This document shows positions 451 to 18,703 of a DNA stretch of 42,463 nucleotides, one piece after another (the stretch's first letter is position 1; each line of letters opens with the position of its first letter). Made by a program: the position numbers and the translations under genes. Under the pieces are notes generated by a model. The model searched no databases and had not been told where the DNA came from. It worked only from the letters and a program-made list of their open reading frames with translations. The DNA lies in assembly GCA_020629195.1 (NCBI GenBank), contig JAHDDT010000003.1, positions 2,569-45,031 on the forward strand, written 5' to 3'. This stretch comes from Hellea sp. Its GTDB lineage: Bacteria; Pseudomonadota; Alphaproteobacteria; Caulobacterales; Maricaulaceae.

Positions 451-464
451 TGACAACGTTGTCA
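451..464. promoter_or_regulatory. Putative LacI-family operator, variant core TGACAACGTTGTCA
   Basis: Perfect 14-bp palindrome between the divergent GH3 and lacI genes; outer arms TGACA/TGTCA match the sites at 1506, 9663, 13413 and 14577. Confidence 0.75.
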
Positions 465-507
465 AATTTTTATTTTACAGATAGTAATTTATGTGAAATG
501 AGGACTT

Positions 508-1488
508 ATGCCTACAATTATTGATGTCGCAAAAGAAGCTGGTGTTTCGTTTAAAACGGTTTCACGCGTCCTTAATGGCGAGTCTCGCGTTCGGAGCGAA
601 ACTAAGGACAAAGTCCTCGCTGCGGCTAAAGCGCTTGATTACCGCGTAAATACGGCTGCGAGAACGCTGCGGTCTAAATCGGCAAAACGCCTTGCCCTTC
701 TGATAGATAATCCTTCGGGAAGTTATGTTGAGGCCACCCAAATCGGAGCTATGCTGGCTGTGCAGCCCGTCGGCTTTCAGCTCTTCACGGGGACATCTTT
801 GTTGGAAATTGAAGGCTTTGACGACCTCGTGGGCGTGATTTTATCACCGCCGCTCTCTAATAACCTTGATGTTTTAGCTCAACTGGAACACCGAAAAATT
901 CCATTTGTGCGCATTGGGGCGGAAAAAATAAGTGAGGCAGGTGACCGTATAGGAATCGATGATCGCGCTGCGGCGAAAGACATGACAAATTATTTATTGG
1001 GATTGGGTCACCGCGATATTGGCTTCATCAAAGGAGACCCGGATTACGATGTGTCTCGCAGACGCTTTGATGGCTTTATGGATGCGATGTCTGACGCAAA
1101 TATTTTTGTAAATGAAGACTGGTGTCCCATAGGGAGTTTCTCTTATGAGTCTGGGCTTAGATGCGCGGAAGCCTTATTAGATAAAAAAACCAGACCCAGC
1201 GCTATTTTTGCCAGTAATGATGAAATGGCGTCTGCGGCACTTGCGACAGCCTACAAGCTCAATATTCGCGTGCCAGATTCGCTTTCTGTTGTAGGTTTTG
1301 ATGATGCGCCAATCTCCCGCGCTATCTATCCGAGGCTCACAACGGTTCAGCAATCCACACAAGATATGGTTGGGGAGGCTGTGCGTATTCTAGCGGAGCG
1401 TATATCTCGTAAAGACGGGCCTTTAGCGAATGTGACTTTGTCTCATAAAATATTAGAACGGGAGTCTTCGACCAGGCCACCTCAATAA
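508..1488 (+). CDS. LacI-family transcriptional regulator
   Basis: N-terminal HTH TIIDVAKEAGVSFKTVSRVLNG, hinge NTAARTLRS, periplasmic-binding-like C-terminus (AIFASNDEMASAAL, VPDSLSVVGFDDAPIS); RBS-like gagg upstream. Confidence 0.95.
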   Translation: MPTIIDVAKEAGVSFKTVSRVLNGESRVRSETKDKVLAAAKALDYRVNTAARTLRSKSAKRLALLIDNPSGSYVEATQIGAMLAVQPVGFQLFTGTSLLEIEGFDDLVGVILSPPLSNNLDVLAQLEHRKIPFVRIGAEKISEAGDRIGIDDRAAAKDMTNYLLGLGHRDIGFIKGDPDYDVSRRRFDGFMDAMSDANIFVNEDWCPIGSFSYESGLRCAEALLDKKTRPSAIFASNDEMASAALATAYKLNIRVPDSLSVVGFDDAPISRAIYPRLTTVQQSTQDMVGEAVRILAERISRKDGPLANVTLSHKILERESSTRPPQ

Positions 1489-1505
1489 CGTTAACAGCAA
1501 AGTGT

Positions 1506-1519
1506 TGACAGCGCTGTCA
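1506..1519. promoter_or_regulatory. Putative LacI-family operator TGACAGCGCTGTCA upstream of the SSS transporter
   Basis: Perfect palindrome in the lacI/SSS intergenic region; identical to the cores at 9663, 13413 and 14577. Confidence 0.85.
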
Positions 1520-1583
1520 CAATAAGAGAATGGTGAACGTTAAGAGCGATAATCGCCGAACATATTTCGAGGGGACAGATTTT

Positions 1584-3179
1584 ATGTCATTAGCAGGATT
1601 AGATTTATTCGTATTAGCGGCTTATGCTGTCATGCTGTTTGCTGTCGCAATGTATGTGTCACGCGAAAAAGATGGGCACTCAAAAAATACCGAAGACTAT
1701 TTCCTTGCGGGTAAGTCTCTGCCTTGGTGGGCAATTGGCGCTTCCCTCATTGCAGCGAATATTTCTGCCGAACAAATCATTGGCATGTCGGGGCAGGGTT
1801 ATGCCGTGGGTCTCGCAATTGCAGCCTATGAATGGCAAGCCGCTATTGTGTTGATTATTGTCGCGAAATATTTCTTGCCAATATTCTTGAAACGCGAAAT
1901 CTACACGATGCCGCAATTCTTGGAGACCCGTTACGGGCCAGGCGTGAAAACTACAATGTCACTTTATTGGATCGCGCTCTACACGGCGGTTAATTTAACA
2001 GCTGTCATGTGGCTAGGTTCCTTGGCCGTCAATTCGCTAACGGGTGTCTCTGAGTTTTGGGGCATGGCTATGCTAGGCGGATTTGCTTTGGCTTATTCAA
2101 TGTATGGTGGTTTGAAAGCCGTTGCGCTTACAGATATTATTCAAGTTGTTATTCTTGTGCTTGGCGGCCTCATCATTGCTTGGCTCACAATGGGTATGAT
2201 TGGTGGGGATAATGGTGTGCTTGGTGGCTTTAAGCGGCTCTATACTGAGCTACCCGGAAAATTTGATATGATCCTATCCAAAGACCATCCGGCCTATGGC
2301 GATCTTCCAGGGATTTGGACACTTCTTGGCGGCCTTTGGGTGCTTCACTTCTCTTATTGGGGATTTAATCAATATATCATCCAGCGTGCATTAGGCGCTA
2401 AAGACGTTGCCGAAGCGCAAAAGGGTTTGGTTTTCGCAGCTGCGTTAAAGCTTGTTATGCCTTTGATTATTGTTCTTCCCGGAATTGCCGCAATTATGCT
2501 TGCCGCGCCCGAGATGAACGTTTTGGATAAGAGCGTTTTAGATGCGACAACAGATCGGGCTTACCCTGAAGTCATGAAAATTATGCCAGCAGGTTTGCGT
2601 GGATTGATTTTTGCAGCACTAATTGCCGCGATTGTGTCTTCTCTCGCTTCAATGGTGAACTCGATCTCAACCATTTTTACAATGGATGTTTACAAAGACA
2701 AAATCGCACCAGCAAAAGATGAAAAGCATTATGTGATGGTGGGCCGCATCACGGCTGTTGTTTCTATGGTCGTTGCACTGTTTCTTGCACAACCTCTTCT
2801 AGGGAGTATGGCAAGTGCGTTCCAGACCATACAAGAATATACAGGCTTTATCGCGCCAGGCATAGTAGCTGTGTTCTTGATGGGCATGTTCTGGAAGCGC
2901 ACAAATGCTGAAGGGGCTTTCGCTATGTTAGCGGCTTCGGTTCTCCTGTCATTGGCCTTGAAATTAGGATTATCTGATATGCCATTTGTAATCCGTATTT
3001 GGATTATCTTCCTTGGCTGTTTGGTCATAGGCGCGGTTGTTTCAGCTGCAACGTCTCAGCCTAAGGACGGTCAATCTGTTGTGTTGGGTGATATCAATTT
3101 CAAAACGTCAAGCAGTTTCAATCTGTGGACACTCATTATCGCTATTGTTTTGATCGCACTTTATGCTGTGTTCTGGTAG
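1584..3179 (+). CDS. Sodium:solute symporter (SSS/SGLT family), probable sugar transporter
   Basis: ORF 1530-3179; the start at 1584 is preferred because of the RBS gagggg at 1569-1574. Multiple TM segments; EDYFLAGKSLPWWAIGASLIAANISAEQIIGMSGQGY is typical of SSS sugar transporters. Confidence 0.9.
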   Translation: MSLAGLDLFVLAAYAVMLFAVAMYVSREKDGHSKNTEDYFLAGKSLPWWAIGASLIAANISAEQIIGMSGQGYAVGLAIAAYEWQAAIVLIIVAKYFLPIFLKREIYTMPQFLETRYGPGVKTTMSLYWIALYTAVNLTAVMWLGSLAVNSLTGVSEFWGMAMLGGFALAYSMYGGLKAVALTDIIQVVILVLGGLIIAWLTMGMIGGDNGVLGGFKRLYTELPGKFDMILSKDHPAYGDLPGIWTLLGGLWVLHFSYWGFNQYIIQRALGAKDVAEAQKGLVFAAALKLVMPLIIVLPGIAAIMLAAPEMNVLDKSVLDATTDRAYPEVMKIMPAGLRGLIFAALIAAIVSSLASMVNSISTIFTMDVYKDKIAPAKDEKHYVMVGRITAVVSMVVALFLAQPLLGSMASAFQTIQEYTGFIAPGIVAVFLMGMFWKRTNAEGAFAMLAASVLLSLALKLGLSDMPFVIRIWIIFLGCLVIGAVVSAATSQPKDGQSVVLGDINFKTSSSFNLWTLIIAIVLIALYAVFW

Positions 3180-3182
3180 TTT

Positions 3183-3196
3183 TGACAGCGATGGCA
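3183..3196. promoter_or_regulatory. Degenerate operator-like site TGACAGCGATGGCA upstream of the MFS transporter
   Basis: Left half identical to the operator, right half with two substitutions; intergenic, upstream of the ATG at 3234. Confidence 0.5.
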
Positions 3197-3233
3197 AAAG
3201 GCGAGTAAGCTTGGAAAAAAAGGGGACAGATTT

Positions 3234-4640
3234 ATGTCAGATAATACAGTAGCCGCTGCCGAGAAGGGAAATATGGGCTTTATCGTCCTGATTTGTCTTG
3301 TTGCGACTTTAGGCGGATTTCTTTTCGGGTTTGATAGTGGCGTTATTAACGGCACGGTCAAAGGGTTAGATGCCGCCTTTGGGGCCACAAATTTTGCCAG
3401 TGGCCTTAATGTTGCGTCGATGCTGCTCGGTTGTGCGGCGGGTGCGTTCTTTGCTGGACGTCTCTCGGATATGTTCGGGCGCCGCAATATGATGATGCTT
3501 GCCGCTATTTTCTTCCTTATCTCTGCATGGGGCTCAGGGATAGCAGGAAGCTCAGGCACATTTATCTTCTTTCGTATTCTTGGCGGCCTTGCTGTGGGGG
3601 CAGCGTCTGTTATGGCGCCAGCTTACATCTCTGAAATCGCGCCAGCCCGTTTGCGCGGTGGCCTCGCGTCATTGCAGCAAATTGCAATTGTTGTCGGTCT
3701 TACGGCAGCGTTCTTTTCTAACTATTATCTCGCGAATACTTCGGGTGGCGCGACAGCTGAATTTCGCGGCACCGAAACGTGGCGTTGGATGTTCTGGGTA
3801 GAGATTGCGCCTGCAGCTCTGTTTTTCTTGCTTCTGTTTTTTATCCCGAAAAGTCCGCGCTTTTCTATGGTCAAAGACGATGAAGCGGGGGCGCGCAAGA
3901 CTTTGACGAAACTCTTTGGCGGCACTGTAGCTGAGCGTAAAGTCAATGAAATTAAAGCATCTCTTGCCAGTGATCATAAGCCTCGTTTGTCAGATATCTT
4001 CATGGGCGGGAAGCTTCGTCCTATCGTTTGGGTGGGTATCGGCCTCGCCGTTTTCCAGCAGCTCGTCGGTATCAATGTCATTTTCTATTACGGCGCTGTG
4101 ATGTGGGAAGCGGCTGGCTTTACCGAAGCTGACGCGCTTAAGCAGAATGTCTTTATGGGCGTTATGTCCATTTTTGCGACAGGCCTCACCGTATTCCTCA
4201 TCGATAAGTTTGGCCGTAAACCATTCTTGATGATTGGCTCTGTGGGTATGGCAATTATGCTGGCTATTGTCGCTTGGGCATTTGGTACAGGAGAGTTGGT
4301 CAATGGTAGTTTGGAGTTAAGCGACTCAATGGGTCGCACGTCGCTCTATGCAGCTATGGCATATGTGTTCTTCTTCAACATGACATGGGGCCCTGTCATG
4401 TGGGTTTTGCTGGGCGAGATGTTCCCGAACCAAATTCGTGGTTCTGCTTTGGCAGTCGCAGGTTTGGCGCAGTGGATGGCGAACTTCCTTGTTACGATGA
4501 CATTCCCTTGGATGCTCGCCAATTTGGGCCTCTCGGTCTCCTTCTTTATTTATGCGGCTTTCGCTTTCATCTCTATCTTCTTTGTCAAGATGGCTGTCAA
4601 AGAAACCAAAGGCATGGAGCTAGAGGACATGGTGGGCTAG
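3234..4640 (+). CDS. MFS sugar porter family transporter
   Basis: GFLFGFDSGVINGT, GRLSDMFGRRNMM, PKSPR, QQLVGINVIFYYG, FGRKPFL and WVLLGEMFPNQIRGSALAVAG match sugar porter signatures. Confidence 0.95.
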   Translation: MSDNTVAAAEKGNMGFIVLICLVATLGGFLFGFDSGVINGTVKGLDAAFGATNFASGLNVASMLLGCAAGAFFAGRLSDMFGRRNMMMLAAIFFLISAWGSGIAGSSGTFIFFRILGGLAVGAASVMAPAYISEIAPARLRGGLASLQQIAIVVGLTAAFFSNYYLANTSGGATAEFRGTETWRWMFWVEIAPAALFFLLLFFIPKSPRFSMVKDDEAGARKTLTKLFGGTVAERKVNEIKASLASDHKPRLSDIFMGGKLRPIVWVGIGLAVFQQLVGINVIFYYGAVMWEAAGFTEADALKQNVFMGVMSIFATGLTVFLIDKFGRKPFLMIGSVGMAIMLAIVAWAFGTGELVNGSLELSDSMGRTSLYAAMAYVFFFNMTWGPVMWVLLGEMFPNQIRGSALAVAGLAQWMANFLVTMTFPWMLANLGLSVSFFIYAAFAFISIFFVKMAVKETKGMELEDMVG

Positions 4641-4643
4641 GCC

Positions 4644-6362
4644 TTGCTTAAGTCGCTAAAATTCTGGATCGTAGCGCTTGTTGCTGCGGTCTTTTTTTTG
4701 GGGTGTTCGCAAGGGGCTAGCGATGATGAAGCCCTCGGTAGCGCAAAGATGCTTGGGCGATATACGGTCGAGAATTTTGCCGATGGAACTCGTCTAATTC
4801 ATATGGGATGGCCCGGAAGTGGATTCGCGCTTCGTTACGAGGGGGAGGGCTTACTTGTCAGCATCAAAGATGATGGCCGGGGCATTATGGATTTGCGAGT
4901 TAATGGCGTAGATTCGACAATAAAGCTCAAAAAAGGATTACATGAGTACAGACTTGTTGAGGCTGACACATTTGGTGTTTTTGACGTTAGATTGACCCGA
5001 CGTTCTGAGTTCTATGACACGGGGCTATTTTCAATCAGTGTTATTACCAATGACTCGAGAACTATGGGCTCTTATAAAGCTTTAAAACTCCCCCTTAAGG
5101 ACCGTAAAATCCTATTTCTCGGGGATTCCATCACGGCAGGTTTCGGCGTGGGCGGCGATACGAAAGACTGTCTCAACACACCCGCCCTGCATTCACCGAC
5201 CGAGAGCTACGCGATGCTGACGGCAGATATGTTTGGCGCTGAGCCGCATCTTATTGCGATTTCAGGACGAGGTGTGGTGCATAACTGGGACGCTAATCCA
5301 GCACCCGTCATGCCTGCTCAAATCGACTTTGCATTGCCTGATGACTCTGATGGACCTGACTGGGACCATAGCCTATTTACACCTGATGTCGTCGTAACCT
5401 TGTTAGGCACCAATGATTGGTCGGTAATTAATCCAGGACAGGAAAGATTTCGCAAGGGGTATCGTGATATGCTCTCGGATCTTCGCACACGCTTTCCAAA
5501 AGCACATATCGTTACAGTTGGTGGACCGCTTCTTGACGAAGAGAAGGCGGCGGCGGCTCGTGATGGCATTGACTGGGCTATGTCGGAACTGCAAGATTCA
5601 AACATCTCCACATTAGATTTGACTCTCTATAATGGCCTACTCAAATGGAGCTGTAACTATCATCCTGGGCGCAATTCGATGCGCAAAATGGCGAATGAGC
5701 TATCCGCACATATTGCTGCGGTGAAAGGCTGGACATATGAGCCCTTAAAGCTTCCAAAAGCGCATCCAATAGCTCCGCCAAATTATATGCTGGAGGGTGG
5801 AAAAGCACATTTTAATACGCGTTTACCGCAAATTGATGCGCAGCCTGTCTTGAAAGGCGGTGTTTTATTAGCAGGTGATAGCATTACGGAAGGCTGGCTA
5901 GGGTATGATATAGATTTGGGAGCAACTGTTTCCAACCACGGCGTTAGTTGGGATACAGTAACAGGACTCAAACTACGTCTGCCGCAAATATTGGCCCATT
6001 CTTCTGATAAGATTTTTATACTCATTGGAACGAATGATATTGGATATGATCGTGATCCTCAAATCATGGTAGATGAGTTATCTGAGATTATATCGGCGAT
6101 TAATAATGAGAGTCCGAAGACTAAAATTTATATTCAAAGTCTGCTGCCACGCGAGTTATCGGCAATGGGGGCCGTTAAGGAGATAAATGCTAGCTATGCC
6201 CGTCTCGCTTTGGAAATGGGTGTCAATTATATTGATCTAACCCCCATTTTCTCGGCGCCTGATGGGACGTTGAAAGCAGACCTTACCTATGACGGACTTC
6301 ACTTGAACGAAATGGGATACAAAGTTTGGGCGGAGACTCTTAAACCTTACATTCAAAACTAG
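4644..6362 (+). CDS. Two-domain SGNH/GDSL esterase lipoprotein (CE2-like N-terminal half plus second SGNH domain)
   Basis: TTG start 4 nt after the MFS stop; lipobox FFLGCS; first GDSIT (ILFLGDSITAGFG) with GTND, second GDSIT (VLLAGDSITEGW) with GTND and DGLH (LTYDGLHLNEMGY). N-terminal beta-rich segment resembles the CE2 jelly roll. Confidence 0.85.
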   Translation: MLKSLKFWIVALVAAVFFLGCSQGASDDEALGSAKMLGRYTVENFADGTRLIHMGWPGSGFALRYEGEGLLVSIKDDGRGIMDLRVNGVDSTIKLKKGLHEYRLVEADTFGVFDVRLTRRSEFYDTGLFSISVITNDSRTMGSYKALKLPLKDRKILFLGDSITAGFGVGGDTKDCLNTPALHSPTESYAMLTADMFGAEPHLIAISGRGVVHNWDANPAPVMPAQIDFALPDDSDGPDWDHSLFTPDVVVTLLGTNDWSVINPGQERFRKGYRDMLSDLRTRFPKAHIVTVGGPLLDEEKAAAARDGIDWAMSELQDSNISTLDLTLYNGLLKWSCNYHPGRNSMRKMANELSAHIAAVKGWTYEPLKLPKAHPIAPPNYMLEGGKAHFNTRLPQIDAQPVLKGGVLLAGDSITEGWLGYDIDLGATVSNHGVSWDTVTGLKLRLPQILAHSSDKIFILIGTNDIGYDRDPQIMVDELSEIISAINNESPKTKIYIQSLLPRELSAMGAVKEINASYARLALEMGVNYIDLTPIFSAPDGTLKADLTYDGLHLNEMGYKVWAETLKPYIQN

Positions 6363-6393
6363 CGTTTGGACTGTAATATAAAGCTTATAAGGC

Positions 6394-6405
6394 TTTCGCG
6401 CGAAA
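6394..6405. other. 12-bp perfect palindrome TTTCGCGCGAAA
   Basis: Direct reading, intergenic, between the esterase stop and the small ORF at 6460. Confidence 0.5.
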
Positions 6406-6459
6406 AATGTTTACTTTTTGATGTTTCAGGCTAATAAAGAGATATTACAGAGAGACATT

Positions 6460-6537
6460 ATGACAACACTTATGAAAATTAAGGAAGCCCTTATCGTTTT
6501 TGTGGCATTCCTAGTTGCCCTTTTCTTAGGGCTTTAG
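6460..6537 (+). CDS. Candidate 25-aa hydrophobic small protein
   Basis: ATG at 6460 preceded by agagag; translation MTTLMKIKEALIVFVAFLVALFLGL*. Charged N-terminus followed by one hydrophobic helix; shorter than the ORF-track cutoff. Confidence 0.4.
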   Translation: MTTLMKIKEALIVFVAFLVALFLGL

Positions 6538-6634
6538 ACACGCTCAGACTTAATTAGTCTTATCCCTATATGGTGCTCTTGCCCGTGAGCTTAATGTCTG
6601 TTGGCCAAGTAAAAGCCCGATTCCATTGCGAAAC

Positions 6635-7975
6635 TCACTTATATGCAAATCTGCGGGCCGCACACTGCTTCGCTATGAACTCTTCATGCCTTGGCATAGA
6701 TCTTAAGGCCTGAGTTATAATTTTCTCAATGGCATTAAGTTGAGGGTTTACGTCTTTGGCTTTTAAGTTTTCGGCGAAAGGGTCTATGCGCTGAGGGGTA
6801 ATACCTTGACCCAAAAACAATGTTGTCCAATTATCCCGAAATAGCATGTCTTCTTCATATGTCACGATGCGGCCTCGCGCTGCAAAGACGTCTCTTTTAT
6901 GGGTCGCTTTGGCCGTAAGAGGAAAGTCGCGCTGCCACGCGGATGAGCTGGCATATTGCAGAGCATGATAATCCCACAGCCGATCATAGGTGCTGACGGT
7001 TTGTCTGTTATATTCTTCGCGTTCTATAGGGTCGGTTAGATTTGGTGGAAAGAGCTTTACAAGGCGTTCAATATCGTGCTGCATCAAGCGCAACGGAGAT
7101 CCCATAAGCGGTTCCACGCAAATCGCCGCAAAGCCAATATTCAAAACCCTATCTGACCAAGGCTTAGAGAGACGCCCGCAATGATGCTGATGTTCTCCCA
7201 TCTCCTCATCAAAAAAGAAATCAATCACAATATCTTGGGTCTGATCGGATGCAGTCAGAGTCCACCCTTTGTCCTTAGCGGTGATGTCTGTGGTAAGGCT
7301 AAGTTTGCTGGATTGTGGGGCCAAGCTGCGTGCTGTATAGCTCTTGCATCCTATCCAACTCATGAAGTTATCAGTCTCATTAAGAGGCGTGCCTGTCGCG
7401 TTTATAATTAAGTCTGCAGATTCGCTAATGCTACGGGTTTGAACCATTTCAACGCCGAAACTTTTAGCTCTTCCCAAAAGTAAACTTGCGTAAGCTTGCG
7501 GGTTGAAATGATAGCCATAGTCAAAATCTGAGACTATAGGGCGGCCTTTTGTGTCGGGCGGTAGAAATTTCCCTTCCTTCGCCGCGCGAACGGGAAGTGA
7601 GTAAGGAATTAAATCATCTATGGAATTATAGAGACCTTGCTGAAGCATTAGGTCGATAAAGTTCACGCCCATTATATTCGCGCCATAATCGACAAAGCTA
7701 TTTATATAGGAGGAAGGGCCCCATCCCGTATAGTTTTCGCCAAGCTTCAGACTTGCCGCGCAGCTTTTGGCAAATTCAGCTTCGCCAATTTTGATTTTCT
7801 GATTAAACTTCCTGAGGTCGCTATAGCTGCTTGCGCACCATTCGGATTTAACGAGGGGTCCATTATTGACATAGAAAATCTCGTAAGTCTTGGATGGTAG
7901 GTGATGGCCTAAATAAGCCGCAGCCATAGCGCCGGATAAATCACCCCCCAGAATTACAATGCGTTGCCGTGTCAT
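6635..7975 (-). CDS. Tryptophan-halogenase-family protein, motif-degenerate paralog
   Basis: 446 aa; aligns by eye with the neighbouring halogenase, but GGGTAGW is GGDLSGA, GVGEAT is lost, WxWxIP is absent and EPLESTG is EPLMGSP. SLKLGENYTGW retains the Lys. Confidence 0.75.
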   Translation of the reverse strand: MTRQRIVILGGDLSGAMAAAYLGHHLPSKTYEIFYVNNGPLVKSEWCASSYSDLRKFNQKIKIGEAEFAKSCAASLKLGENYTGWGPSSYINSFVDYGANIMGVNFIDLMLQQGLYNSIDDLIPYSLPVRAAKEGKFLPPDTKGRPIVSDFDYGYHFNPQAYASLLLGRAKSFGVEMVQTRSISESADLIINATGTPLNETDNFMSWIGCKSYTARSLAPQSSKLSLTTDITAKDKGWTLTASDQTQDIVIDFFFDEEMGEHQHHCGRLSKPWSDRVLNIGFAAICVEPLMGSPLRLMQHDIERLVKLFPPNLTDPIEREEYNRQTVSTYDRLWDYHALQYASSSAWQRDFPLTAKATHKRDVFAARGRIVTYEEDMLFRDNWTTLFLGQGITPQRIDPFAENLKAKDVNPQLNAIEKIITQALRSMPRHEEFIAKQCAARRFAYK

Positions 7976-9477
7976 GCGGCGTTACAATATTGGCGTATAT
8001 AGTCACCGTGCCGGCTCATGCTTTCAACAGCTTGGGCCACTTCATTCTCCACTTTGCCAAGGTGTTGCGGCAAAGATTCAAGCGGAATGTGATCTGCAAC
8101 GGGATCATAGGCACGAGGTATAATGCCTTGGCCATAATAAACGGCGAGCCATGAGGGGTCTTTAAAGGCGCCGACATCGTAAGATACGACACGCCCGCTC
8201 GATTTAAAAAGCTCCATTTTATAGGTTAGACTTTCAGGCAGTTCCATATCGCGGATATGTCGCCAAAACGGGCTGTCATCACGCGTAGTGGCTACGTAGT
8301 GCAAGAGCAGAAAGTCTCGCACGCGCTCAAAATTTAGATCCATAATGCGATTATATTCGTCTTGGTCAATTTGAGGGCAATCCTTAGTCGGAAACATTTC
8401 AATAAAATTGGTTATAGCTTCTTGAATAAGAAAAATTCCTGTCGATTCCAGTGGTTCTAAAAATCCTCCCGATAGGCCAATGGCGATACAGTTCTTATGC
8501 CAGCTTTTATTGCGTTGGCCGGTTTTAAACCTGAGCGTTTTCGGCTCGCTGCGTTGATCTCCTTCCAAATCAGCCAGCATCGATGCTGCGGCCTCATCAT
8601 CACTTATGTGGTCAGAACAATAGACATATCCGTTGCCAGTTCTGTGTTGGAGTGGAATGCGCCATTGCCATCCCGCTGACTTTGCGGTGGCGGTTGTGTA
8701 AGGTAGGCTCGGGCCTTCATGCTCACAAGCAGCTGTCACGGCACGGTCACATGGTAAGAAATTAGTCCAGTCTTTATAGCCCGTTTCTAGGGCTTGTTCT
8801 ATCAACAGACCGCGAAAACCAGAGCAATCAATAAAGATATCTGCTTCTATGTCGGAGCCGTCTTCAAGTTTAACGGATGAAATAAATCCATTTTCACTGC
8901 GCAAGTTTACGTCAATTATACGTCCCTCAATACGTTTAATGCCGCGTTTCTCAGAAAAGGCTCTGAGGAATTTTGCATAGAGACCAGCATCAAATTGATA
9001 GGCAAAGCCAAAACTGGACAAAATATTATTGGGGTCAGGGTGAGGTAATTGAAATTTCCCATGACGTGCTGCCATGACGGGTAGAGACCATTTATCTAGG
9101 TGAATATCAAAGCCCTGTTGCGCCGCGCGGCTGACGTAGTGATGAAATCCAACCCGAGCGATATCTTCGCCGAAATTGCCAAAGGGATGAATGTAACTAT
9201 CCCCAATTTTTCCCCAATCTTTAAATTCAATGCCAAGCTTAAATGTAGCTTTTGTCGCCTTCATCAGTTCAGCTTCGTTAATACCTAGTCTTTGATTGAA
9301 AAATCGAATGTGAGGGAGTGTCGCTTCGCCAACGCCTACTGTGCCAATAGCTGCTGATTCAATAAGTGTTATAGATAGCTCTTGGTTACGTAAGGTGGCG
9401 CATAATCCCGCAGCCGTCATCCAACCCGCAGTACCGCCGCCCACAATGACTATTGATGTGACCTTCTTGTTATCCAA
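7972..9477 (-). CDS. Flavin-dependent tryptophan halogenase family protein (intact motifs)
   Basis: VIVGGGTAGWMTAA, GTVGVGEATLPHIRFFN, ATFKLGIEFKDWG (catalytic Lys region), GWQWRIP (WxWxIP), GLSGGFLEPLESTGI. The ORF extends to 9555, but a TTG at 9477 preceded by AGAAGG is the likelier start. Confidence 0.9.
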   Translation of the reverse strand: MDNKKVTSIVIVGGGTAGWMTAAGLCATLRNQELSITLIESAAIGTVGVGEATLPHIRFFNQRLGINEAELMKATKATFKLGIEFKDWGKIGDSYIHPFGNFGEDIARVGFHHYVSRAAQQGFDIHLDKWSLPVMAARHGKFQLPHPDPNNILSSFGFAYQFDAGLYAKFLRAFSEKRGIKRIEGRIIDVNLRSENGFISSVKLEDGSDIEADIFIDCSGFRGLLIEQALETGYKDWTNFLPCDRAVTAACEHEGPSLPYTTATAKSAGWQWRIPLQHRTGNGYVYCSDHISDDEAAASMLADLEGDQRSEPKTLRFKTGQRNKSWHKNCIAIGLSGGFLEPLESTGIFLIQEAITNFIEMFPTKDCPQIDQDEYNRIMDLNFERVRDFLLLHYVATTRDDSPFWRHIRDMELPESLTYKMELFKSSGRVVSYDVGAFKDPSWLAVYYGQGIIPRAYDPVADHIPLESLPQHLGKVENEVAQAVESMSRHGDYIRQYCNAA

Positions 9478-9661
9478 AGCGCTCGACCTTCTTGAATTTA
9501 ATTTCCTAATTGATGTCACGCCGTGTCGATGGACGCAATAAAATCTCTTCCACAAGCGACATTTTGGCGGGAAAAATAGCCCTGAAATCGCAGAATTTAT
9601 GAGATTTTGGAGAGTCTAAGACCCAAAATGGCTCATAGAGTGGAATGTAGTGAATAAACAA

Positions 9662-9677
9662 TTGACAGCGCTGTCAA
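9662..9677. promoter_or_regulatory. Putative LacI-family operator TTGACAGCGCTGTCAA between halogenase and GH3 genes
   Basis: Perfect 16-bp palindrome in the divergent intergenic region. Confidence 0.85.
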
Positions 9678-9765
9678 TATTCTCATTTTATACGCTGACT
9701 GAAATATTATATATTAGCGCGGATAAGCATTTGCTATAATGCATCTATATCATGGGGATTATAAA

Positions 9766-12330
9766 ATGACACATTCACATCTTCTTAAAAGCGTAGCTAT
9801 TTGCAGCTTGGCTGCCGTCCTTATAGCGTGCGGTGGACAAAGCGAGATGGCGGCCTCGACGGCAGAAACAAAGCCCGTTCCTCGCGCTCCAGGTTCAGTC
9901 GATACGTCAATCTGGCCTAAGGCAAAAAGTCCTGTTGGATTGGATGCTGCCATGGAGGCCCGCATTACAAAATTGATGTCGCAAATGAGTCTGCGTCATA
10001 AAGTTGGACAAGTTATTCAAGCTGATATCGGATCTATCACGCCTGAAGACATCAAAACTTATCCCTTAGGCTCTATCCTGAATGGCGGTAACTCGGCGCC
10101 AAATGGCGATAACCGTTCTCCAGCTTCTGCATGGGTGAAACTGGCCGATGAGTTTTATGAAGCGTCTAAAGAGGCTTATTCTGACGGGGTCCCCTTTATA
10201 CCGATGATTTGGGGAACAGATGCTGTGCATGGTCATAATAACATTCCTGGCGCAACGGTCTTTCCACATAATATCGGTTTGGGAGCCACGCGTAATCCAA
10301 AACTCTTGGGTCAGATTGGGGCTATTACAGCGCAAGAAATTCGTGTGGGTGCCCAAGAGTGGACCTTCGCGCCAACAATCGCGGTGGTAAGGGATGATCG
10401 CTGGGGCCGGACATATGAAGGTTACTCAGAAAATCCAGATGTAACAGCCTCATATGCAGGCGAGCTTATACGCGGTATTCAAGGTGAGCCGGGGTCAGAT
10501 ACATGGCTAAAGGGTAAAAAGGTTATCGCGACAGCCAAACACTTCTTAGGTGACGGCGGAACTAATCAGGGCCGTGATCAAGGTGATAATTTGGACACTG
10601 AAGAGCAATTGCGCGATATTCACGGCGCGGCCTATCCCGTCGCTTTAGATGCGGGTGCTCAGTCCGTCATGATTTCATTCTCAAGCTGGCAGGGGACGAA
10701 ACTGCACGGTCATAAAGGTCTTATTACAGATGTTCTCAAAGGCCGCATGGGCTTTGATGGTTTCGTAGTAGGGGATTGGAACGCTCATGGTCAGCTCGAT
10801 AGCTGCACAAATGAAAATTGCCCAGATGCGCTTCACGCTGGTCTGGATATGTATATGGCCCCTGATAGTTGGCGCGGTCTTTTTGACAACACTTTGGCAC
10901 AAGCGGAGAGCGGCGAGCTTGATCTTGAGCGGCTCGATGATGCGGTGCGTCGTATTCTGCGCGTTAAATTGCGTTCGGGTTTGTTCGAAGCGGGAAAACC
11001 GTCCTCCCGACCAGGCGCGGCTGAATATGCAGTACTACGTGACCCGGCTTCAAAAAAGGTAGCACGTCAGGCTGTCCGCGAAAGCCAAGTTCTCCTCAAG
11101 AATGACGGTGTTTTGCCGATCAACCCTGCAGCTACCGTGTTAGTAGCGGGTGATGGCGCAGATAATATCGGAAAGCAATCAGGCGGTTGGACACTATCTT
11201 GGCAAGGCACAGGAAATGAGAATTCAGACTTTCCAGGCGGATCATCATTCTTAGATGGCATTAAGCGTCATGTAGAGAAAGCTGGCGGTTCAGTTATCGA
11301 AGCAGACGCTGAAGGAATTTACCTTGGTAATCCAACCGTTGCGATCGTTGTTTTTGGCGAAGAACCTTATGCTGAGTTTAAAGGCGATATTGACAATCTT
11401 GCCTATAAGCCAGGCGACGATAGTGATTTGGCGCTTCTGAAAAAATATCAAGCCGCAGGTATTCCGACAGTGGCCGTATTCTTATCAGGTCGTCCGCTCT
11501 GGATGAATCGAGAGCTTAATGCGTCCAATGCTTTTGTGGCGGCTTGGCTTCCAGGGTCAGAAGGTGGCTACGCAACTGATCTTTTATTCACTGATAAGGA
11601 CGGCAAAGTCAGCCATGACTTCAAGGGGACGCTACCATATTCTTGGCCGCGTACAGCGATACAAACGCCGCTTAATTATGATGATGAAAATTATGATCCG
11701 CTATTCGCCTATGGTTATGGCTTGTCTTACGCGAAGCCCGGTAAAGTTGGAGTGCTTTCAGAAGAAGCAGGAATAGAATTATCAGCGAAAAATGATAGTG
11801 ACTTTTTCAAAGCTGGTAAGGCCGTCTTCCCGTGGGCTCTCGTAATTGGTGACCCGTCCGGGAAGACAACGGTGAAAACAACCAAGGCCGCTTCCCCGGC
11901 TGGTGTCGTCTCTATTGTATCCGCTGATGATGGCGTTCAGGAAAATATCCGGACGCTGAGCTTTGACGGAAGCGGCAAGGGCCGCTTTGAAGTCCGCGGC
12001 ACGCCCGTAGATTTATCGCGCCAGAATACGGGTGACATGGCAATTTATATGCGTTTGCGACCTGAATCAGGGACTGAAGCTGCGAACGTGTCATTGACCT
12101 TGGATTGCGGCAAAGGATGCGATCCCGTACAGCCATTGGGCAAAGTTCTTAGCGGTGTGAAAGCGGGTGAGTGGACTGAGGTGTCCGTGAAGCTGTCTTG
12201 CTTTGCAGAAGGCTCTTCAATGGAATATGTCTCTGCGCCATTTGCCGTTGAAACTGCTGATAAGGTGAGCTTTAGCTTATCCGATGTAAAGCTTGTCGCC
12301 AATGAAGGGCAAGCTGTCTGTCTTGACTAA
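9766..12330 (+). CDS. GH3 beta-glucosidase/exo-beta-glucanase lipoprotein (ExoP-like, with C-terminal accessory domain)
   Basis: Signal peptide/lipobox LAAVLIACGG; GH3 motifs MSLRHKVGQVIQADIGSI, PFIPMIWGTDAVHGHNN, KHFLGDGGT, FDGFVVGDWNAHGQ; C-terminal beta-rich extension. Start at 9766 preferred over 9739. Confidence 0.93.
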   Translation: MTHSHLLKSVAICSLAAVLIACGGQSEMAASTAETKPVPRAPGSVDTSIWPKAKSPVGLDAAMEARITKLMSQMSLRHKVGQVIQADIGSITPEDIKTYPLGSILNGGNSAPNGDNRSPASAWVKLADEFYEASKEAYSDGVPFIPMIWGTDAVHGHNNIPGATVFPHNIGLGATRNPKLLGQIGAITAQEIRVGAQEWTFAPTIAVVRDDRWGRTYEGYSENPDVTASYAGELIRGIQGEPGSDTWLKGKKVIATAKHFLGDGGTNQGRDQGDNLDTEEQLRDIHGAAYPVALDAGAQSVMISFSSWQGTKLHGHKGLITDVLKGRMGFDGFVVGDWNAHGQLDSCTNENCPDALHAGLDMYMAPDSWRGLFDNTLAQAESGELDLERLDDAVRRILRVKLRSGLFEAGKPSSRPGAAEYAVLRDPASKKVARQAVRESQVLLKNDGVLPINPAATVLVAGDGADNIGKQSGGWTLSWQGTGNENSDFPGGSSFLDGIKRHVEKAGGSVIEADAEGIYLGNPTVAIVVFGEEPYAEFKGDIDNLAYKPGDDSDLALLKKYQAAGIPTVAVFLSGRPLWMNRELNASNAFVAAWLPGSEGGYATDLLFTDKDGKVSHDFKGTLPYSWPRTAIQTPLNYDDENYDPLFAYGYGLSYAKPGKVGVLSEEAGIELSAKNDSDFFKAGKAVFPWALVIGDPSGKTTVKTTKAASPAGVVSIVSADDGVQENIRTLSFDGSGKGRFEVRGTPVDLSRQNTGDMAIYMRLRPESGTEAANVSLTLDCGKGCDPVQPLGKVLSGVKAGEWTEVSVKLSCFAEGSSMEYVSAPFAVETADKVSFSLSDVKLVANEGQAVCLD

Positions 12331-12355
12331 GCGATTGTTTATATGAATGAATATT

Positions 12356-12380
12356 GCCAAGCCTTAGGCTTGGCTTTTTT
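12356..12380 (+). terminator. Rho-independent terminator downstream of the GH3 gene
   Basis: GCCAAGCC-TTA-GGCTTGGC stem-loop followed by TTTTTT. Confidence 0.9.
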
Positions 12381-12385
12381 CTTGG

Positions 12386-13354
12386 CTATGTAGAGGAGGC
12401 TGCACCTATAAGCGGGGCTGTAGAATCAATAAGTAGCCTCAGAGGCACGCGCTCCATGCGCGATTGCATTTTACCCTTGCGGGTGAATCTTTCAATTGCG
12501 GACGGCCTTGATAAATATGGTAACAGATGTTGTGTTACGCCTCCGGCCAAGACAGCACCTTGCCAAGACCCGCTCGCCAGAACAGTATTGCCGATAAAAT
12601 TCATTAAAGCATTTGCGGTGAATTCACATGTGTCTTCTGCAATTTTATGGCCTGAATTTGCGCGTTGCGTGATGTCATTGGCTTTGAGCTCTGCGCAGGA
12701 GAGGCCGTTCACGGCAGATATAGCATTATGAACAATTTCCAAACCTCGCCCTGAGCAAATGAGCTCGAAAGAAACATAGCCATATTTGGCATTTAAAAAC
12801 GCTTGAATTTCACGTTCATAATCATCCAGCGGCGCAAAGGGTTGGTGGCCACCTTCCGTGGGTAAAACAGTCCATCCTTTCACGGCGTCACCCAAAAGCA
12901 AAGCTTGTCCTAAGCCCGTTCCTGCTCCTGCGACCGCAAGGGTTTTGAGAGGAGACAAGTATTCGCCCTGATGCCCGCGTTGTAGCATATGAAATGCATC
13001 ATCAGGCAATTCGGGAATAGACCGTGCCATGGCCGCAAAGTCATTCATAAAAACAAGGTGGTCAAATCCAAACCGTGACATCAAATCAGAGCGCCGCACT
13101 GTCCAGTCTTTATTCGTCAAACTGACTGAGTCTTCATCCATAGGCCCCGCTAAGGCAAAGACGGCTTGGTTTGGATGATCATTGCCTGTGGTATTGTCTA
13201 GGAAACATGCCAAAGCGTCACTGAACTTTTCAAAGTCATTGGCAGGTGCGCGCCAAATATGAGACAGGGACGGCAGCCCTGATGGGCGCCGCTGCGCGAC
13301 TGCAAAGCGGATATTTGTCCCGCCTATGTCGCCTACTAAGACGCGGTTTTGCAC
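12386..13354 (-). CDS. glk: Glucokinase (first copy)
   Basis: VLVGDIGGTNIRFAVA, FALAGP, LVFMNDFAAMA, AGAGTGLGQALL, LPTEGGHQPFAP. Confidence 0.92.
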   Translation of the reverse strand: MQNRVLVGDIGGTNIRFAVAQRRPSGLPSLSHIWRAPANDFEKFSDALACFLDNTTGNDHPNQAVFALAGPMDEDSVSLTNKDWTVRRSDLMSRFGFDHLVFMNDFAAMARSIPELPDDAFHMLQRGHQGEYLSPLKTLAVAGAGTGLGQALLLGDAVKGWTVLPTEGGHQPFAPLDDYEREIQAFLNAKYGYVSFELICSGRGLEIVHNAISAVNGLSCAELKANDITQRANSGHKIAEDTCEFTANALMNFIGNTVLASGSWQGAVLAGGVTQHLLPYLSRPSAIERFTRKGKMQSRMERVPLRLLIDSTAPLIGAASST

Positions 13355-13412
13355 TATTTTCCCTTTTACCGATTTATCGGATATTATCGTTTTAACATGA
13401 CATAAACTTGAG

Positions 13413-13426
13413 TGACAGCGCTGTCA
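13413..13426. promoter_or_regulatory. Putative LacI-family operator TGACAGCGCTGTCA in the divergent glk/lacI intergenic region
   Basis: Perfect palindrome identical to the other three sites. Confidence 0.85.
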
Positions 13427-13560
13427 ATATTGCTTAACGTATTGTTACAGCTGACACTTAAGAGATGAGGATAAAAGCAGGGTCTTTATTGACCTTTTAA
13501 GGGCTCTAAGCCATTGTTATTACTCAATGGACGGGGGCCCGTATTCGCGGCGTAAAGACA

Positions 13561-14568
13561 ATGAAGTCAACGATCACAGATGTAGCCAAACAGGCCGGTG
13601 TCTCAATGAAGACAGTCTCGCGCGTTTTAAACAATGAGCCGAATGTGGCTCAAAAAACGCGTGAACGTGTTTTGGCTGTTGCAAAGGAATTACGCTATTC
13701 TCCAAATTTGGCGGCAAGGGGGTTAGCCAGTTCAAAATCTTATTTACTCGCGCTCCTTTATGATAATCCGAGCCCGAATTATATTGCGAATATACAAAAG
13801 GGGGCCATAGATGCATGCCGAGATAGTGGGTATCATCTCGTTATTGAGCCGCTAAATATGAATATGGACGATATAGGGGATGCTCTTGAACTGCGTTTAG
13901 AGCGACTTCCTGTTGACGGTATCATCCTAACGCCGCCACTTTGTGATGATGAAAATCTTTTGGATGTTTTAAAGCGCCTGAAAATACCTTATGTGCCAGT
14001 TGCGCCGTCCCGTGAGCCTGATGATGTGACCTCTGTGAAAATGGATGATGTGCAAGCCTCATTTGAAATGACGGAATATATGATCCGTAACGGCCATAAG
14101 AAACTAGGTTTTATTAAAGGACACCCTGAACATAGCGCGAGTACACTTAGATATTTAGGCTTTGTCAAAGCTGTAGAAGCAGCTGGATTAGAGGTCGATT
14201 TGGACGCCGTCGTCGATGGAGATTTCTCGTTCAAATCAGGTGTTAAGGCTGCGGAAGTTTTACTGACTTCTAAAGAGCGTCCCACGGCTATATTTGCGAG
14301 TAATGACGATATGGCTGCAGCAGTCGTGTCAGTTGCTAGTCGTCTGGGTATTTCTGTACCAGGCGATCTATCTGTTGGGGGGTTTGATGATACTCCGCTC
14401 GCACAAATTTTATACCCGCAACTGACAACAATTAAGCAGCCCATCTATGAAATGGGGCATATGGCGGCGAGTTTGTTAATAAAGCCTCCAAAACCAGAAG
14501 ATCGCCTACCTAGCTATTGTCTTGATCACAAACTTATTATACGCGACTCCACTCAGAAAAGTGAGTAA
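13561..14568 (+). CDS. LacI-family transcriptional regulator (second copy)
   Basis: STITDVAKQAGVSMKTVSRVLNNEPNVAQKTRERV, hinge NLAARGLASSKS, AIFASNDDMAAAVV, VPGDLSVGGFDDTPLA. Confidence 0.95.
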   Translation: MKSTITDVAKQAGVSMKTVSRVLNNEPNVAQKTRERVLAVAKELRYSPNLAARGLASSKSYLLALLYDNPSPNYIANIQKGAIDACRDSGYHLVIEPLNMNMDDIGDALELRLERLPVDGIILTPPLCDDENLLDVLKRLKIPYVPVAPSREPDDVTSVKMDDVQASFEMTEYMIRNGHKKLGFIKGHPEHSASTLRYLGFVKAVEAAGLEVDLDAVVDGDFSFKSGVKAAEVLLTSKERPTAIFASNDDMAAAVVSVASRLGISVPGDLSVGGFDDTPLAQILYPQLTTIKQPIYEMGHMAASLLIKPPKPEDRLPSYCLDHKLIIRDSTQKSE

Positions 14569-14575
14569 AGTGCAA

Positions 14576-14604
14576 TTGACAGCGCTGTCATTTTCATTTC
14601 TAAT
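14576..14604 (+). promoter_or_regulatory. zwf promoter with embedded operator (TTGACA-N17-TCTAAT; operator core 14577-14590)
   Basis: TTGACA at 14576-14581, TCTAAT at 14599-14604, 17-bp spacer; the palindrome TGACAGCGCTGTCA overlaps the -35 and spacer. Confidence 0.8.
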
Positions 14605-14627
14605 CGTGTTTGATAAGGATCGAAACC

Positions 14628-16136
14628 GTGACATCATCCAACAAAAATACTGAAAATATCGAAACCTCTTCGGGGTCCACATTTGTCCCCGTAGAGCCCT
14701 TTGAAATTGTCGTGTTTGGCGGAACGGGTGACTTGGCGCGACGTAAGCTTTTACCCTCACTTTATCACCGTTATCGCGACGGACAAATTTCAGACGATAG
14801 CCGTATTGTAGGAGTTTCAAGGTCCAAACACTCACGTGCCGATTACCAAGCATTGATTGAAGCAAATTATCATGAGTTCGCCAAGGACGAAGAGTTTGAC
14901 CCAAAGCTTTGGGCAAAGTTTATTAAGCTTGTAGATTACGTTTCGATTGACGTTATGGCGGATAAAGATTGGTCAGCTCTTGGCGGGGCGCTTACTAAAG
15001 ACGCTGATCTTATTCGAGTTTTCTATCTTGCCATGCCGCCGCGCATGTTCGCGGATATTTGCGAGGGTTTAAAAGCGGCAGATTTGGTTCATGAAAAATC
15101 ACGCGTTGTTCTCGAAAAACCTTTGGGAACGGATTATGAATCTGCACGTGAAATTAACGCAGGTGTTGGGCGCGTATTTAAAGAAAACAACATCTATCGT
15201 ATCGACCATTACCTTGGAAAAGAAACGGTACAAAATCTGTTAGTTCTTCGCTTCGGGAATATTCTTCTTGAACCACTATGGTCTAATCAAGCGATTGATC
15301 ACATTGAGATAACAGTAGCAGAATCCATTGGTGTCGGTGGACGCGGCTCTTATTATGACGGAGCGGGAGCCCTACGCGATATGGTGCAAAACCATCTGCT
15401 TCAGCTCCTATGTTTGACGGCTATGGAAGCCCCAAGTTCGTTGGATGCAAATGATGTGCGGACTGAGAAAATCAAAGTTCTCAGAGCCTTGCGTCCTATT
15501 ACAACTGAAAGCGCAAAACGCAAAACAGTGCGCGGTCAATATGCACGCGGTAAAGTCGATGATGAAGCGGTCACAGATTATATGAGCGACGTTGATGTGA
15601 CCGAAAGCTCAACTGAAACCTATGTTGCCATCAAGGCAGAGGTTGATAATTGGCGATGGGCGGGCGTTCCGATTTATTTGCGCACAGGCAAACGTATGTC
15701 GTCGCGTCGTTCTGAAATCGTTATACAATTTAAATCCGTTCCGCATTCCATATTTGGCGATACCCAAGTGAATCCCAACAAGCTTGTGATTCGTTTGCAG
15801 CCTGATGAAGCGGTTAAGCTCTGGTTTGAAGTTAAGGAGCCTGGGGCCGGGGGGATGCGTTTGAAAACGCTTCCACTCAATTTGAGTTACGCAGATAATT
15901 TCACAGTCCGTTATCCCGATGCCTATGAGCGCCTTTTAATGGATGTGGTGCGCGGTAATCTCAGCTTGTTCATGCGCCGTGATGAAGTCGAGTCAGCTTG
16001 GAAATGGGTCGATGGTATTTTAGAAGCTTGGGAGGCATCGGGACAAAGAACTGAGCTCTATGCGGCAGGTAGCGAAGGTCCAGCAGAAGCCGATGATATG
16101 TTAGCCGGCTATGGTCATAGATGGTCTGAGGGATAA
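14628..16136 (+). CDS. zwf: Glucose-6-phosphate 1-dehydrogenase
   Basis: VVFGGTGDLARRKLLPSLYH, YRIDHYLGKETVQNLLVLRFGN. ORF from 14610 (TTG), but a GTG at 14628 preceded by aagga fits the RBS and promoter position better. Confidence 0.96.
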   Translation: MTSSNKNTENIETSSGSTFVPVEPFEIVVFGGTGDLARRKLLPSLYHRYRDGQISDDSRIVGVSRSKHSRADYQALIEANYHEFAKDEEFDPKLWAKFIKLVDYVSIDVMADKDWSALGGALTKDADLIRVFYLAMPPRMFADICEGLKAADLVHEKSRVVLEKPLGTDYESAREINAGVGRVFKENNIYRIDHYLGKETVQNLLVLRFGNILLEPLWSNQAIDHIEITVAESIGVGGRGSYYDGAGALRDMVQNHLLQLLCLTAMEAPSSLDANDVRTEKIKVLRALRPITTESAKRKTVRGQYARGKVDDEAVTDYMSDVDVTESSTETYVAIKAEVDNWRWAGVPIYLRTGKRMSSRRSEIVIQFKSVPHSIFGDTQVNPNKLVIRLQPDEAVKLWFEVKEPGAGGMRLKTLPLNLSYADNFTVRYPDAYERLLMDVVRGNLSLFMRRDEVESAWKWVDGILEAWEASGQRTELYAAGSEGPAEADDMLAGYGHRWSEG

Positions 16137-16137
16137 T

Positions 16138-16854
16138 ATGTCGGGCATATTCGCATTTGAAAGCTTTTCCAGTCGTGATGAGATGGTGATCAAAGCTACT
16201 CAGCAAATCTCTAGCGCAATAAGCTCAGCTGTTACCGCAAAGGGTTTCGCTAGCCTTATGTTATCGGGTGGCTCCAGCCCTAAGCCTGTCTATGAAGCGT
16301 TGACACAAATTGATTTGCCTTGGGATAAGGTCACAATCGGCCTTGTCGATGACCGCTGGATTGATCGCGGACTACCGGGCTCTAATGAAACTTTTTTAGA
16401 TGATACACTTTTTAAAGGTAAAGCAAAGGCCGCGAAATTTGTCGGACTGAAAACGTCTGCGCCCAATCCATCCGAAGGAGTCAAAGAAGCTGAAAAAAAG
16501 ATCAGCTCTATCGCTCAACCTTTTGATTTATGTGTTATGGGCATGGGACTGGACGGCCACACAGCGTCATGGTTTCCTAATTCAAAAGGCCTTAAAGAGG
16601 CCTTAGATATTCAGAATCCAAATAACGTTATAGCCATAGACGCACAGGGCTGTCCTGTTGCAGGGGAGCACCCTGAACGGATTACGCTTACATTATCCGC
16701 GGTTATGGGATCAAAACAAATTATCTTGATGATCCCTGGTGCTGGAAAATCAACTGTGTTCAAAGAGAGCGCACAGAAATCGGTTTATGATGCTCCGGTA
16801 AAGGCTCTCCGCGCAGCGGGCGAGCGCTTAACAGTAATGACGGATGAGAGCTAA
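16138..16854 (+). CDS. pgl: 6-phosphogluconolactonase
   Basis: LMLSGGSSPKPVYEAL, VGLVDDRWI-like VTIGLVDDRWIDRG, GMGLDGHTASWFP; ATG immediately follows the zwf stop. Confidence 0.95.
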   Translation: MSGIFAFESFSSRDEMVIKATQQISSAISSAVTAKGFASLMLSGGSSPKPVYEALTQIDLPWDKVTIGLVDDRWIDRGLPGSNETFLDDTLFKGKAKAAKFVGLKTSAPNPSEGVKEAEKKISSIAQPFDLCVMGMGLDGHTASWFPNSKGLKEALDIQNPNNVIAIDAQGCPVAGEHPERITLTLSAVMGSKQIILMIPGAGKSTVFKESAQKSVYDAPVKALRAAGERLTVMTDES

Positions 16855-16858
16855 ACCT

Positions 16859-18703
16859 ATGGCGATGAACTCCACAATTGAAAAAGTTACGGCGCGCATT
16901 CAAAAGCGCTCAGCTGATACGCGTAAGGCTTATCTCGCGGCTGTGAAGACGAATATCCGGCCCGGTCCTCGCCGCAAGCGTCTCTCCGAAGGTAACGTCG
17001 CCCATGCAACTGCGGCCTGTCCCGTGTTGGAAAAGACGGAACTGCTTGGCGCGAAATGGGCCAATATCGGTATTGTGACGGCCTATAATGATATGCTCTC
17101 CGCGCATCAACCTTTTGCCACATATCCTGACCTTATCAAACATGCGGCTCGCAGAAATGGCGCAACGGCGCAGGTCGCGGGCGGTGTTCCGGCCATGTGT
17201 GATGGCGTCACCCAAGGCCAAGACGGAATGGAGCTCTCTCTCTTCTCGCGAGATATCATTGCTTATTCGACGGCGATTGCACTTTCTCATGATATGTTCG
17301 ACTCTGTCATTCATTTAGGCGTTTGCGATAAGATTGTGCCGGGCCTTATGATTGGCGCTTTGCGTTATGGATATATTCCGCAAATATTCGCGCCTGCTGG
17401 GCCAATGCCGTCGGGTATTCCGAACCCAGAAAAAGCAAAAGTGCGTCAGCTTTTTGCTGAAGGGAAAGTTGGACGCGATGAACTTTTGAAGGTTGAGGCC
17501 GCCTCATATCATGCGCCAGGGACTTGCACTTTTTACGGCACAGCTAACTCAAATCAAATGCTGATGGAAATAATGGGGATGCAGTTACCAGGGGCGTCTT
17601 TTGTTCATCCCAATACACCTCTGCGTGATGCGATTACCGCGCAGACGACGCGCCGCGCGGTGCAGATGACGGATATTGGCGGAGATTTCACACCAGCGGG
17701 TCACATCATTGATGAGAAAGCTATCGTAAATGGACTCGTTGGATTAATGGCTACAGGCGGTTCAACCAATCTAACCATACATATGGCGGCTATTGCTGCG
17801 GCTGCTGGAATTATCATAAATTGGGATGATTTTTCGGACATATCACATGCAACGCCGCTTATCTGCCGCATTTATCCAAATGGCACAGCGGATGTGAACC
17901 ATTTCCATGCCGCAGGTGGTATGGCTTACCTCATTAGCCAATTGATAGATGCAGGTCTTGTCCATACTGATGTGACGACAGTCGCAGGCGGTGAGGGTCT
18001 TATAGAATATACACGTGAACCCATCAAAAATTCTCATGCCGAGGCTGATACGGTGCTTTTTAAAGAAGGTCCAAAAGAGAGCCTCGACACAGATATATTG
18101 ACCTCAGTTGATAAGCCGTTCCGCCCGGATGGAGGCTTAAGGCTGCTTGAAGGAAATATTGGACGTTCAGTTATGAAAGTCTCTGCCGTCAAGCGTGAAA
18201 ACTGGCTTGTCGAAGCCCCTGCGATTGTTATCGATGATCAGAATACCTTGATTGACATGCATAAAGCCGGTGAGCTTGAAAAAGATTTCGTGGTTGTTCT
18301 GCGGTTTCAGGGGCCACGCGCTAACGGCATGCCGGAACTTCATAAGCTCACGCCAATTATGGGAGCGTTACAGGATAAGGGCTATAAGATTGCTATGGTC
18401 ACGGATGGCCGCATGTCAGGCGCCTCTGGAAAAGTTCCAGCGGCTATCCATATGCATCCCGAAGCGCTGGCTGGCGGGAATATTGCGAAAATTCAAAACG
18501 GGGATATTGTTCGCGTCGATCCTGCTGCAGAAACTGTTAATGTCGTCTCTGATCCTAACTGGCTTTCACGTCCATTAGCGGATGCACCAAAGGTGAAAAA
18601 TCTTGATGCATTAGGTATGAACATGTTTGCGCCTCTTCGGGGCCAAGCCGACAACTCCGAAGCTGGGGCATCGGTTCTGGGTCGTCCAGAGTGGATGGCA
18701 TAA
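16859..18703 (+). CDS. edd: Phosphogluconate dehydratase
   Basis: [71 protein letters not shown]. Confidence 0.96.

Follow-up and report, generated by a model that had tools for sequence, protein, structure and literature searches.

The DNA analysed here, a 42,463-nucleotide (nt) stretch of the genome of a marine Hellea sp. of the Alphaproteobacteria, order Maricaulales (the window; coordinates are window positions unless a locus label is given), carries copies of a CG-centred palindrome in front of sugar genes, together with two genes for LacI-family regulators, lacI-1 and lacI-2. With a probability of about 0.78, we propose that the palindromes are operators of LacI-2, a putative repressor resembling GluR of Caulobacter, and that LacI-1 is a paralog distinguished by its hinge. 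The motif most likely marks a genuine sugar-use regulon run by this GluR-related protein, with LacI-2 reading the sites centred on AGCGCT and LacI-1 the site centred on AACGTT.

Operator sites and their likely reader

A pattern search of the whole window found exactly four copies of TGACAGCGCTGTCA (1506-1519, 9663-9676, 13413-13426 and 14577-14590), as a preliminary description of this DNA had reported; its estimate that a given 14-mer would occur about 1.6e-4 times in 42 kb is arithmetically correct. At up to three mismatches, the window holds nine TGACAGCGCTGTCA-like matches versus 1.5 +/- 1.2 in dinucleotide shuffles, and none of 100 shuffles attained nine. All six sites of that description, two of which are variants discussed below, lie between genes and ahead of the genes that it named. 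In the genome (an assembly of 2.18 Mb in 144 contigs, 76.5% complete), we found nine exact TGACARCGYTGTCA sites versus none for the reversed control. Nearly all of them adjoin genes that serve to take up sugars, hydrolyse polymers or run central carbon metabolism, namely zwf-pgl-edd-glk, a second glk, GH3, an SSS transporter, TonB receptor/halogenase, gap and GH10.

Both LacI proteins combine a LacI-type helix-turn-helix with a periplasmic-binding-protein-like core (PF00356 and PF13377, above cut-off). CG-centred palindromic operators, a trait of this family, precede both lacI genes and the adjoining operons and are kept in relatives. Two LacI genes only were found in the genome, and also in the 99% complete genome of Hellea balneolensis, which has eight exact sites. 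A protein of H. balneolensis DSM 19091 shares 93% identity with LacI-2; the NCBI taxonomy places this strain in Robiginitomaculaceae, Maricaulales. The single regulator proposed in the preliminary description is thus replaced by two LacI genes with probably separate sites, while LacI-family control itself is supported.

The assignment of the AGCGCT sites to LacI-2 draws on its relatives. Of 21 further orthologs, 20 have an exact copy in the interval separating lacI-2 from zwf, as do most members of the first ortholog set. Among 119 genomes of the family, the 34 that encode an ortholog of LacI-2 (identity of 52% or more, a threshold that we set) average 4.71 sites and the 85 without one 0.48 (Mann-Whitney p ~1e-15, a statistic that ignores shared ancestry); where counts stem from related genomes, they are not independent. 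One genome (G005) has LacI-2 and no LacI-1, and its AGCGCT sites number five, with AACGTT absent. Natural loss of the regulator is seen in one Hellea genome, G004, whose zwf is 86-88% identical to that of the window. There, lacI-2 is reduced to a frameshifted C-terminal remnant and no exact site is left in the genome; the zwf operator has mutated to TGATAATGCTGTCA and the gap operator to TGACAGC-CTTTCG, both with conserved flanks.

The zwf site overlaps a promoter element. In all 28 zwf contexts compared, the base ahead of TGACA is a T, which makes a TTGACA -35 box, and the best -10 match lies at 17 nt. Operator symmetry does not explain this hexamer, because the base 3′ of the zwf palindrome is usually T rather than A. 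TTGACA is present on at least one strand in 70 of 80 non-redundant sites. A generic promoter scan of the window did no better than shuffles (27 sites versus 23.2), and the -35 claim therefore rests on the 28 zwf contexts. The overlap of operator and -35 box at zwf suggests steric repression.

In the mechanism that we propose, LacI-2 would bind TGACAGCGCTGTCA at the divergent promoter that it shares with glk2, as well as at zwf-pgl-edd-glk, GH3/halogenase and the sugar transporters. Outside the window it would act at a TonB receptor and gap, and probably at gap-pgk-fba, pckA, galT and GH10. When bound over the zwf -35 box (TTGACAgcgctgtca), the repressor would shut out RNA polymerase, because operator and box overlap. 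The signal that then frees LacI-2 from the DNA would be a sugar, most likely glucose or one of its early products. Glucose is a guess by analogy, the same as that made for GluR (PMC4052901), and would fit the transporter-glucokinase-zwf series of targets.

Target genes within and beyond the window

The predicted operators and genes of the window are as follows.

3-434, - strand: 5′ part of a GH3 beta-glucosidase-like gene, divergent from lacI-1, continuing beyond the window edge
451-464: predicted LacI-1-type operator TGACAACGTTGTCA, central AACGTT, between the divergent GH3 gene (-) and lacI-1 (+)
508-1488, + strand: LacI-1, local LacI-family regulator (PF00356, PF13377; helix FKTVSR, Arg55 hinge)
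1506-1519: predicted LacI-2-type operator TGACAGCGCTGTCA, ahead of the SSS transporter
1530-3179, + strand: SSS-family sodium:sugar symporter (TIGR00813, PF00474)
3183-3196: TGACAGCGATGGCA, two mismatches, plausibly an eroded operator serving the MFS sugar porter
3234-4640, + strand: MFS sugar porter (TIGR00879, PF00083)
4644-6362, + strand: two-domain GDSL/CE2-like carbohydrate esterase (PF13472, CE2_N)
6635-7975, - strand: tryptophan-halogenase-family flavoprotein 2 (PF04820)
7972-9555, - strand: tryptophan-halogenase-family flavoprotein 1 (PF04820)
9663-9676: predicted TGACAGCGCTGTCA operator, between halogenase (-) and GH3 (+)
9739-12330, + strand: GH3 exo-beta-glucosidase-like lipoprotein (PF00933, PF01915, PF18559)
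12386-13354, - strand: glucokinase 2, glk2 (PF02685)
13413-13426: predicted TGACAGCGCTGTCA operator, between glk2 (-) and lacI-2 (+)
13561-14568, + strand: LacI-2, GluR-like regulator (PF00356, PF13377; helix MKTVSR, Ala55 hinge)
14577-14590: predicted TGACAGCGCTGTCA operator of zwf; with the preceding T it holds the TTGACA -35 box, with TCTAAT 17 nt on
14610-20724, + strand: zwf-pgl-edd-glk operon, then an SMP-30/gluconolactonase-like gene (TIGR00871, PF08450; gene order in relatives)

The GH3 assignment of the truncated gene at 3-434 comes from homology to a GH3 protein (L195:3539-5938), seen in the extended contig (L232). The "core variant" that the preliminary description placed at 451 is present as TGACAACGTTGTCA, and turned out to be a separate conserved variant belonging to lacI-1 and the divergent GH3 gene. 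The degenerate copy at 3183, which it assigned to the MFS gene, is also present, but it cannot stand alone since two-mismatch matches in the genome are mostly background. It is plausibly a worn-down MFS operator, because in H. balneolensis an AGCGCT-type exact site, likewise 3′ of lacI-1, is placed directly ahead of the MFS gene (L246), and no SSS gene was found between the two genes. The more likely start of zwf is the GTG at 14628. At the GH3/halogenase site, TTGACA points at both genes, because a T precedes the palindrome on both strands.

Sites outside the window were assigned to the following genes.

Contig C18, exact: gap
Contig C61, exact: Gfo/Idh oxidoreductase operon, with a TIM-barrel isomerase-like gene and an MFS gene
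Contig C84, exact: TonB receptor with divergent halogenase
Contig C130, exact: DsbD-like gene with divergent GH10
Contig C27, one mismatch: gap-pgk-fba
Contig C77, one mismatch: galT, with galKE-like genes behind (Pfam check on galT only)
Contig C84, one mismatch: CBM4_9 protein
Contig C105, one mismatch, two adjacent sites: pckA

The TonB receptors and further GH genes expected from the preliminary description are thus among the off-window targets; its other prediction, eda, was not seen at any site in this incomplete assembly. Its proposal that LacI-family operators join the breakdown of polymers to uptake, phosphorylation and the Entner-Doudoroff pathway is supported at the sequence level. 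The predicted regulon appears wider than sugar entry, with the addition of gap, gap-pgk-fba, galTKE and pckA, some by one-mismatch sites only. Such sites show little excess over the control (four beyond the exact ones versus four). The gap-pgk-fba and galT variants are letter-identical in H. balneolensis (position confirmed at gap), and an exact site lies at pckA in G009. Among relatives, five genomes have the same motif at gap, four at TonB/halogenase and three at GH16. At up to two mismatches, the genome has 50 sites versus 34 for the reversed control; two-mismatch sites, being mostly background, were not used for enlarging the regulon. Three two-mismatch places in H. balneolensis (L247-L249) gave no match to any target gene used as query.

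The gap site (L014 877-890) is about 20 bp 5′ of the start codon, with its TTGACA directed away from gap, and repression by roadblock may therefore apply there. In front of pckA (L020 1774-1801), the two imperfect operators adjoin to form a near-perfect 28-bp inverted repeat. Genes for tryptophan-halogenase-family flavoproteins (6635-9555, and L016 4659-6173) share the motif with GH3 and TonB-receptor genes. A literature search combining halogenase, TonB and sugar regulons returned nothing direct and no explanation of the halogenase role in sugar loci. Between the convergent GH3 and glk2 genes, a strong inverted repeat with a T run (12356-12374) resembles a terminator. A SOUL-type haem-binding-like gene follows the zwf operon (20772-21419), a position kept in some relatives. 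Elsewhere in their genomes, G009 and G003 have a less closely related zwf (57% identity), and hardly any copies of the motif occur in either genome.

Two hinge residues and two operator types

LacI-1 and LacI-2 are similar in the recognition helix (xKTVSR), and the half-site TGACA is common to their operators. They differ at position 55 of the hinge, which we located by alignment to PurR and CcpA: Arg55 of LacI-1 and its relatives (helix FKTVSR) stands opposite Lys55 of PurR, and Ala55 of LacI-2 opposite an alanine of CcpA. In the numbering of Camas et al. (PMC2978694), and counting from the centre, residues 15 and 16 correspond to bases 5 and 4, and residue 55 to base 2; that paper credits Glasfeld et al. 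1999 with showing a role of residue 55 in PurR. By that account Lys55 of Escherichia coli PurR is tied to the base two from the centre, a pattern that Arg55 of LacI-1, with A:T at this position, follows. Of the 11 R55-type lacI genes with a site upstream, 10 have TGACAACGTTGTCA at their own promoter (the remaining one has T..T), whereas no A55 regulator has a symmetric AACGTT at its own promoter. A basic residue 55 thus accompanies A:T two bases from the centre, in one clade only.

CcpA of Bacillus is the closest solved relative of LacI-2, with the hinge NAVARGLAS compared with NLAARGLAS. Its corepressor is HPr-Ser46-P, and LacI-2 shows no sign of such corepression.

Arg55 in place of Ala55 would make LacI-1 favour A:T second from the centre, and hence TGACAACGTTGTCA; LacI-1 would then act mainly on its own gene and on the divergent GH3 gene. 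The site following lacI-1 is of the AGCGCT type in most genomes, so the neighbouring transporter would pass to LacI-2. At slightly less than even odds, we suggest that two paralogous repressors with similar helices are kept apart in one genome mainly by Ala55 or Arg55 reading one near-centre base pair (AGCGCT or AACGTT), with the gene beside lacI-1 ceded to LacI-2. Unlike in PurR, the hinge residue appears here to separate a natural paralog pair, and a single residue may thus divide two regulons. A strict two-way hinge rule was rejected, as Caulobacter GluR combines Ala55 with AACGTT.

Several observations weigh against the assignment of the two operator types to the two proteins. Some genomes without a LacI-2 ortholog carry three to six sites, while G003 and G009 retain LacI-2 with 0 and 1 exact sites, respectively; in both, zwf-pgl-edd-glk no longer lies beside lacI-2 (L231 9621-11356 and L070 10001-11693). 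G004 has also lost LacI-1 and the neighbouring sugar cluster, and therefore supports LacI-2 without isolating it. Caulobacter GluR has Ala55, yet AACGTT at its zwf operator, so that Ala55 permits both operators and only Arg55 looks restrictive. As the R55 paralogs form one clade in the tree, the hinge covariation is essentially a single evolutionary event. Mixed AACGCT sites may be shared by both regulators. Finally, target lists are incomplete because the assembly of the window is only 76.5% complete.

Both proteins might instead recognise every site without distinction, giving a single common regulon that takes two sugar signals. The likeness of the helices (MKTVSR and FKTVSR), the common TGACA half-site, the occurrence of mixed AACGCT/AGCGTT sites and the AGCGCT site immediately 3′ of lacI-1 would agree with this. 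However, the two operator classes stay separate family-wide: G000, G006, G001 and G002 each have exactly one AACGTT site, located at lacI-1, and G005, without LacI-1, retains AGCGCT sites only, which makes this explanation unlikely. Somewhat less improbable is that LacI-2 acts mainly as a catabolite-control or dual regulator of the Cra/FruR or CceR kind, repressing glycolytic and activating gluconeogenic genes in response to a phosphorylated metabolite. It could account for the sites at pckA and gap and, in G009, for the exact site at pckA and a one-mismatch site at gap-pgk-fba, and in related bacteria 6-phosphogluconate is the metabolite that CceR senses (PMC5507952). However, the majority of sites point to genes of sugar entry, and the zwf site overlaps the -35 box as that of a simple repressor would. 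The palindrome as a chance or structural repeat with no dedicated reader is very hard to credit. Apart from the simplicity of the motif, we found nothing to support it, whereas the reversed control has no exact match in this genome and only two in all 119 family genomes, conservation at orthologous promoters is letter for letter, and sites decay where lacI-2 is lost.

Relation to known regulators

The GluR regulon of Caulobacter (CC2053), including glucose as effector, was predicted by Ravcheev et al. 2014 (PMC4052901), with GluR orthologs reported only in Caulobacter. Both there and in Hellea, a LacI-family gene adjoins zwf-pgl-edd-glk, and the operon and the regulator gene each have sites. 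The Caulobacter loci that we fetched have sites ahead of zwf-pgl-edd-glk, gluR and a GH3 gene, and their TGACA half-sites are those of Hellea. The layouts differ: lacI-2 is upstream of zwf and next to a second glk, whereas gluR is downstream of glk, and the centre of the zwf operator is AGCGCT in Hellea and AACGTT in Caulobacter. Predicted targets in Hellea further comprise gap, TonB receptor/halogenase and gal, and probably pckA. The GluR targets pykA, gnl-gfo, ppdK and sucABCD were not evident beside the sites examined, although no search was aimed at them. The Hellea system thus appears to extend the predicted Caulobacter GluR kind, with an altered layout and a larger target set. This would carry a predicted central-carbon regulon from Caulobacter to marine Maricaulales, with likely regulator and targets named, and the idea is open to test in a cultured strain, because H. 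balneolensis DSM 19091 carries the same sites.

Other regulators described in PMC4052901 are less close. BglR1-3 of Caulobacterales, paralogs of GluR with a predicted role in beta-glucoside use, recall LacI-1 in subfamily and in their GH3 beta-glucosidase targets, as judged from the description in that paper. CceR/GapR of Rhodobacteraceae and PckR of Rhizobiales are LacI-family regulators of central carbon genes including zwf-pgl, edd, gap and pckA; the same source sets them apart from GluR as non-orthologous and with other motifs. LacI-2 is about 50% identical to Caulobacter GluR. In a quick tree, LacI-2 (98%) and Caulobacter GluR (98%) formed separate, neighbouring clades within one 48-row group supported at 83% by the Shimodaira-Hasegawa-like approximate likelihood ratio test (SH-aLRT).

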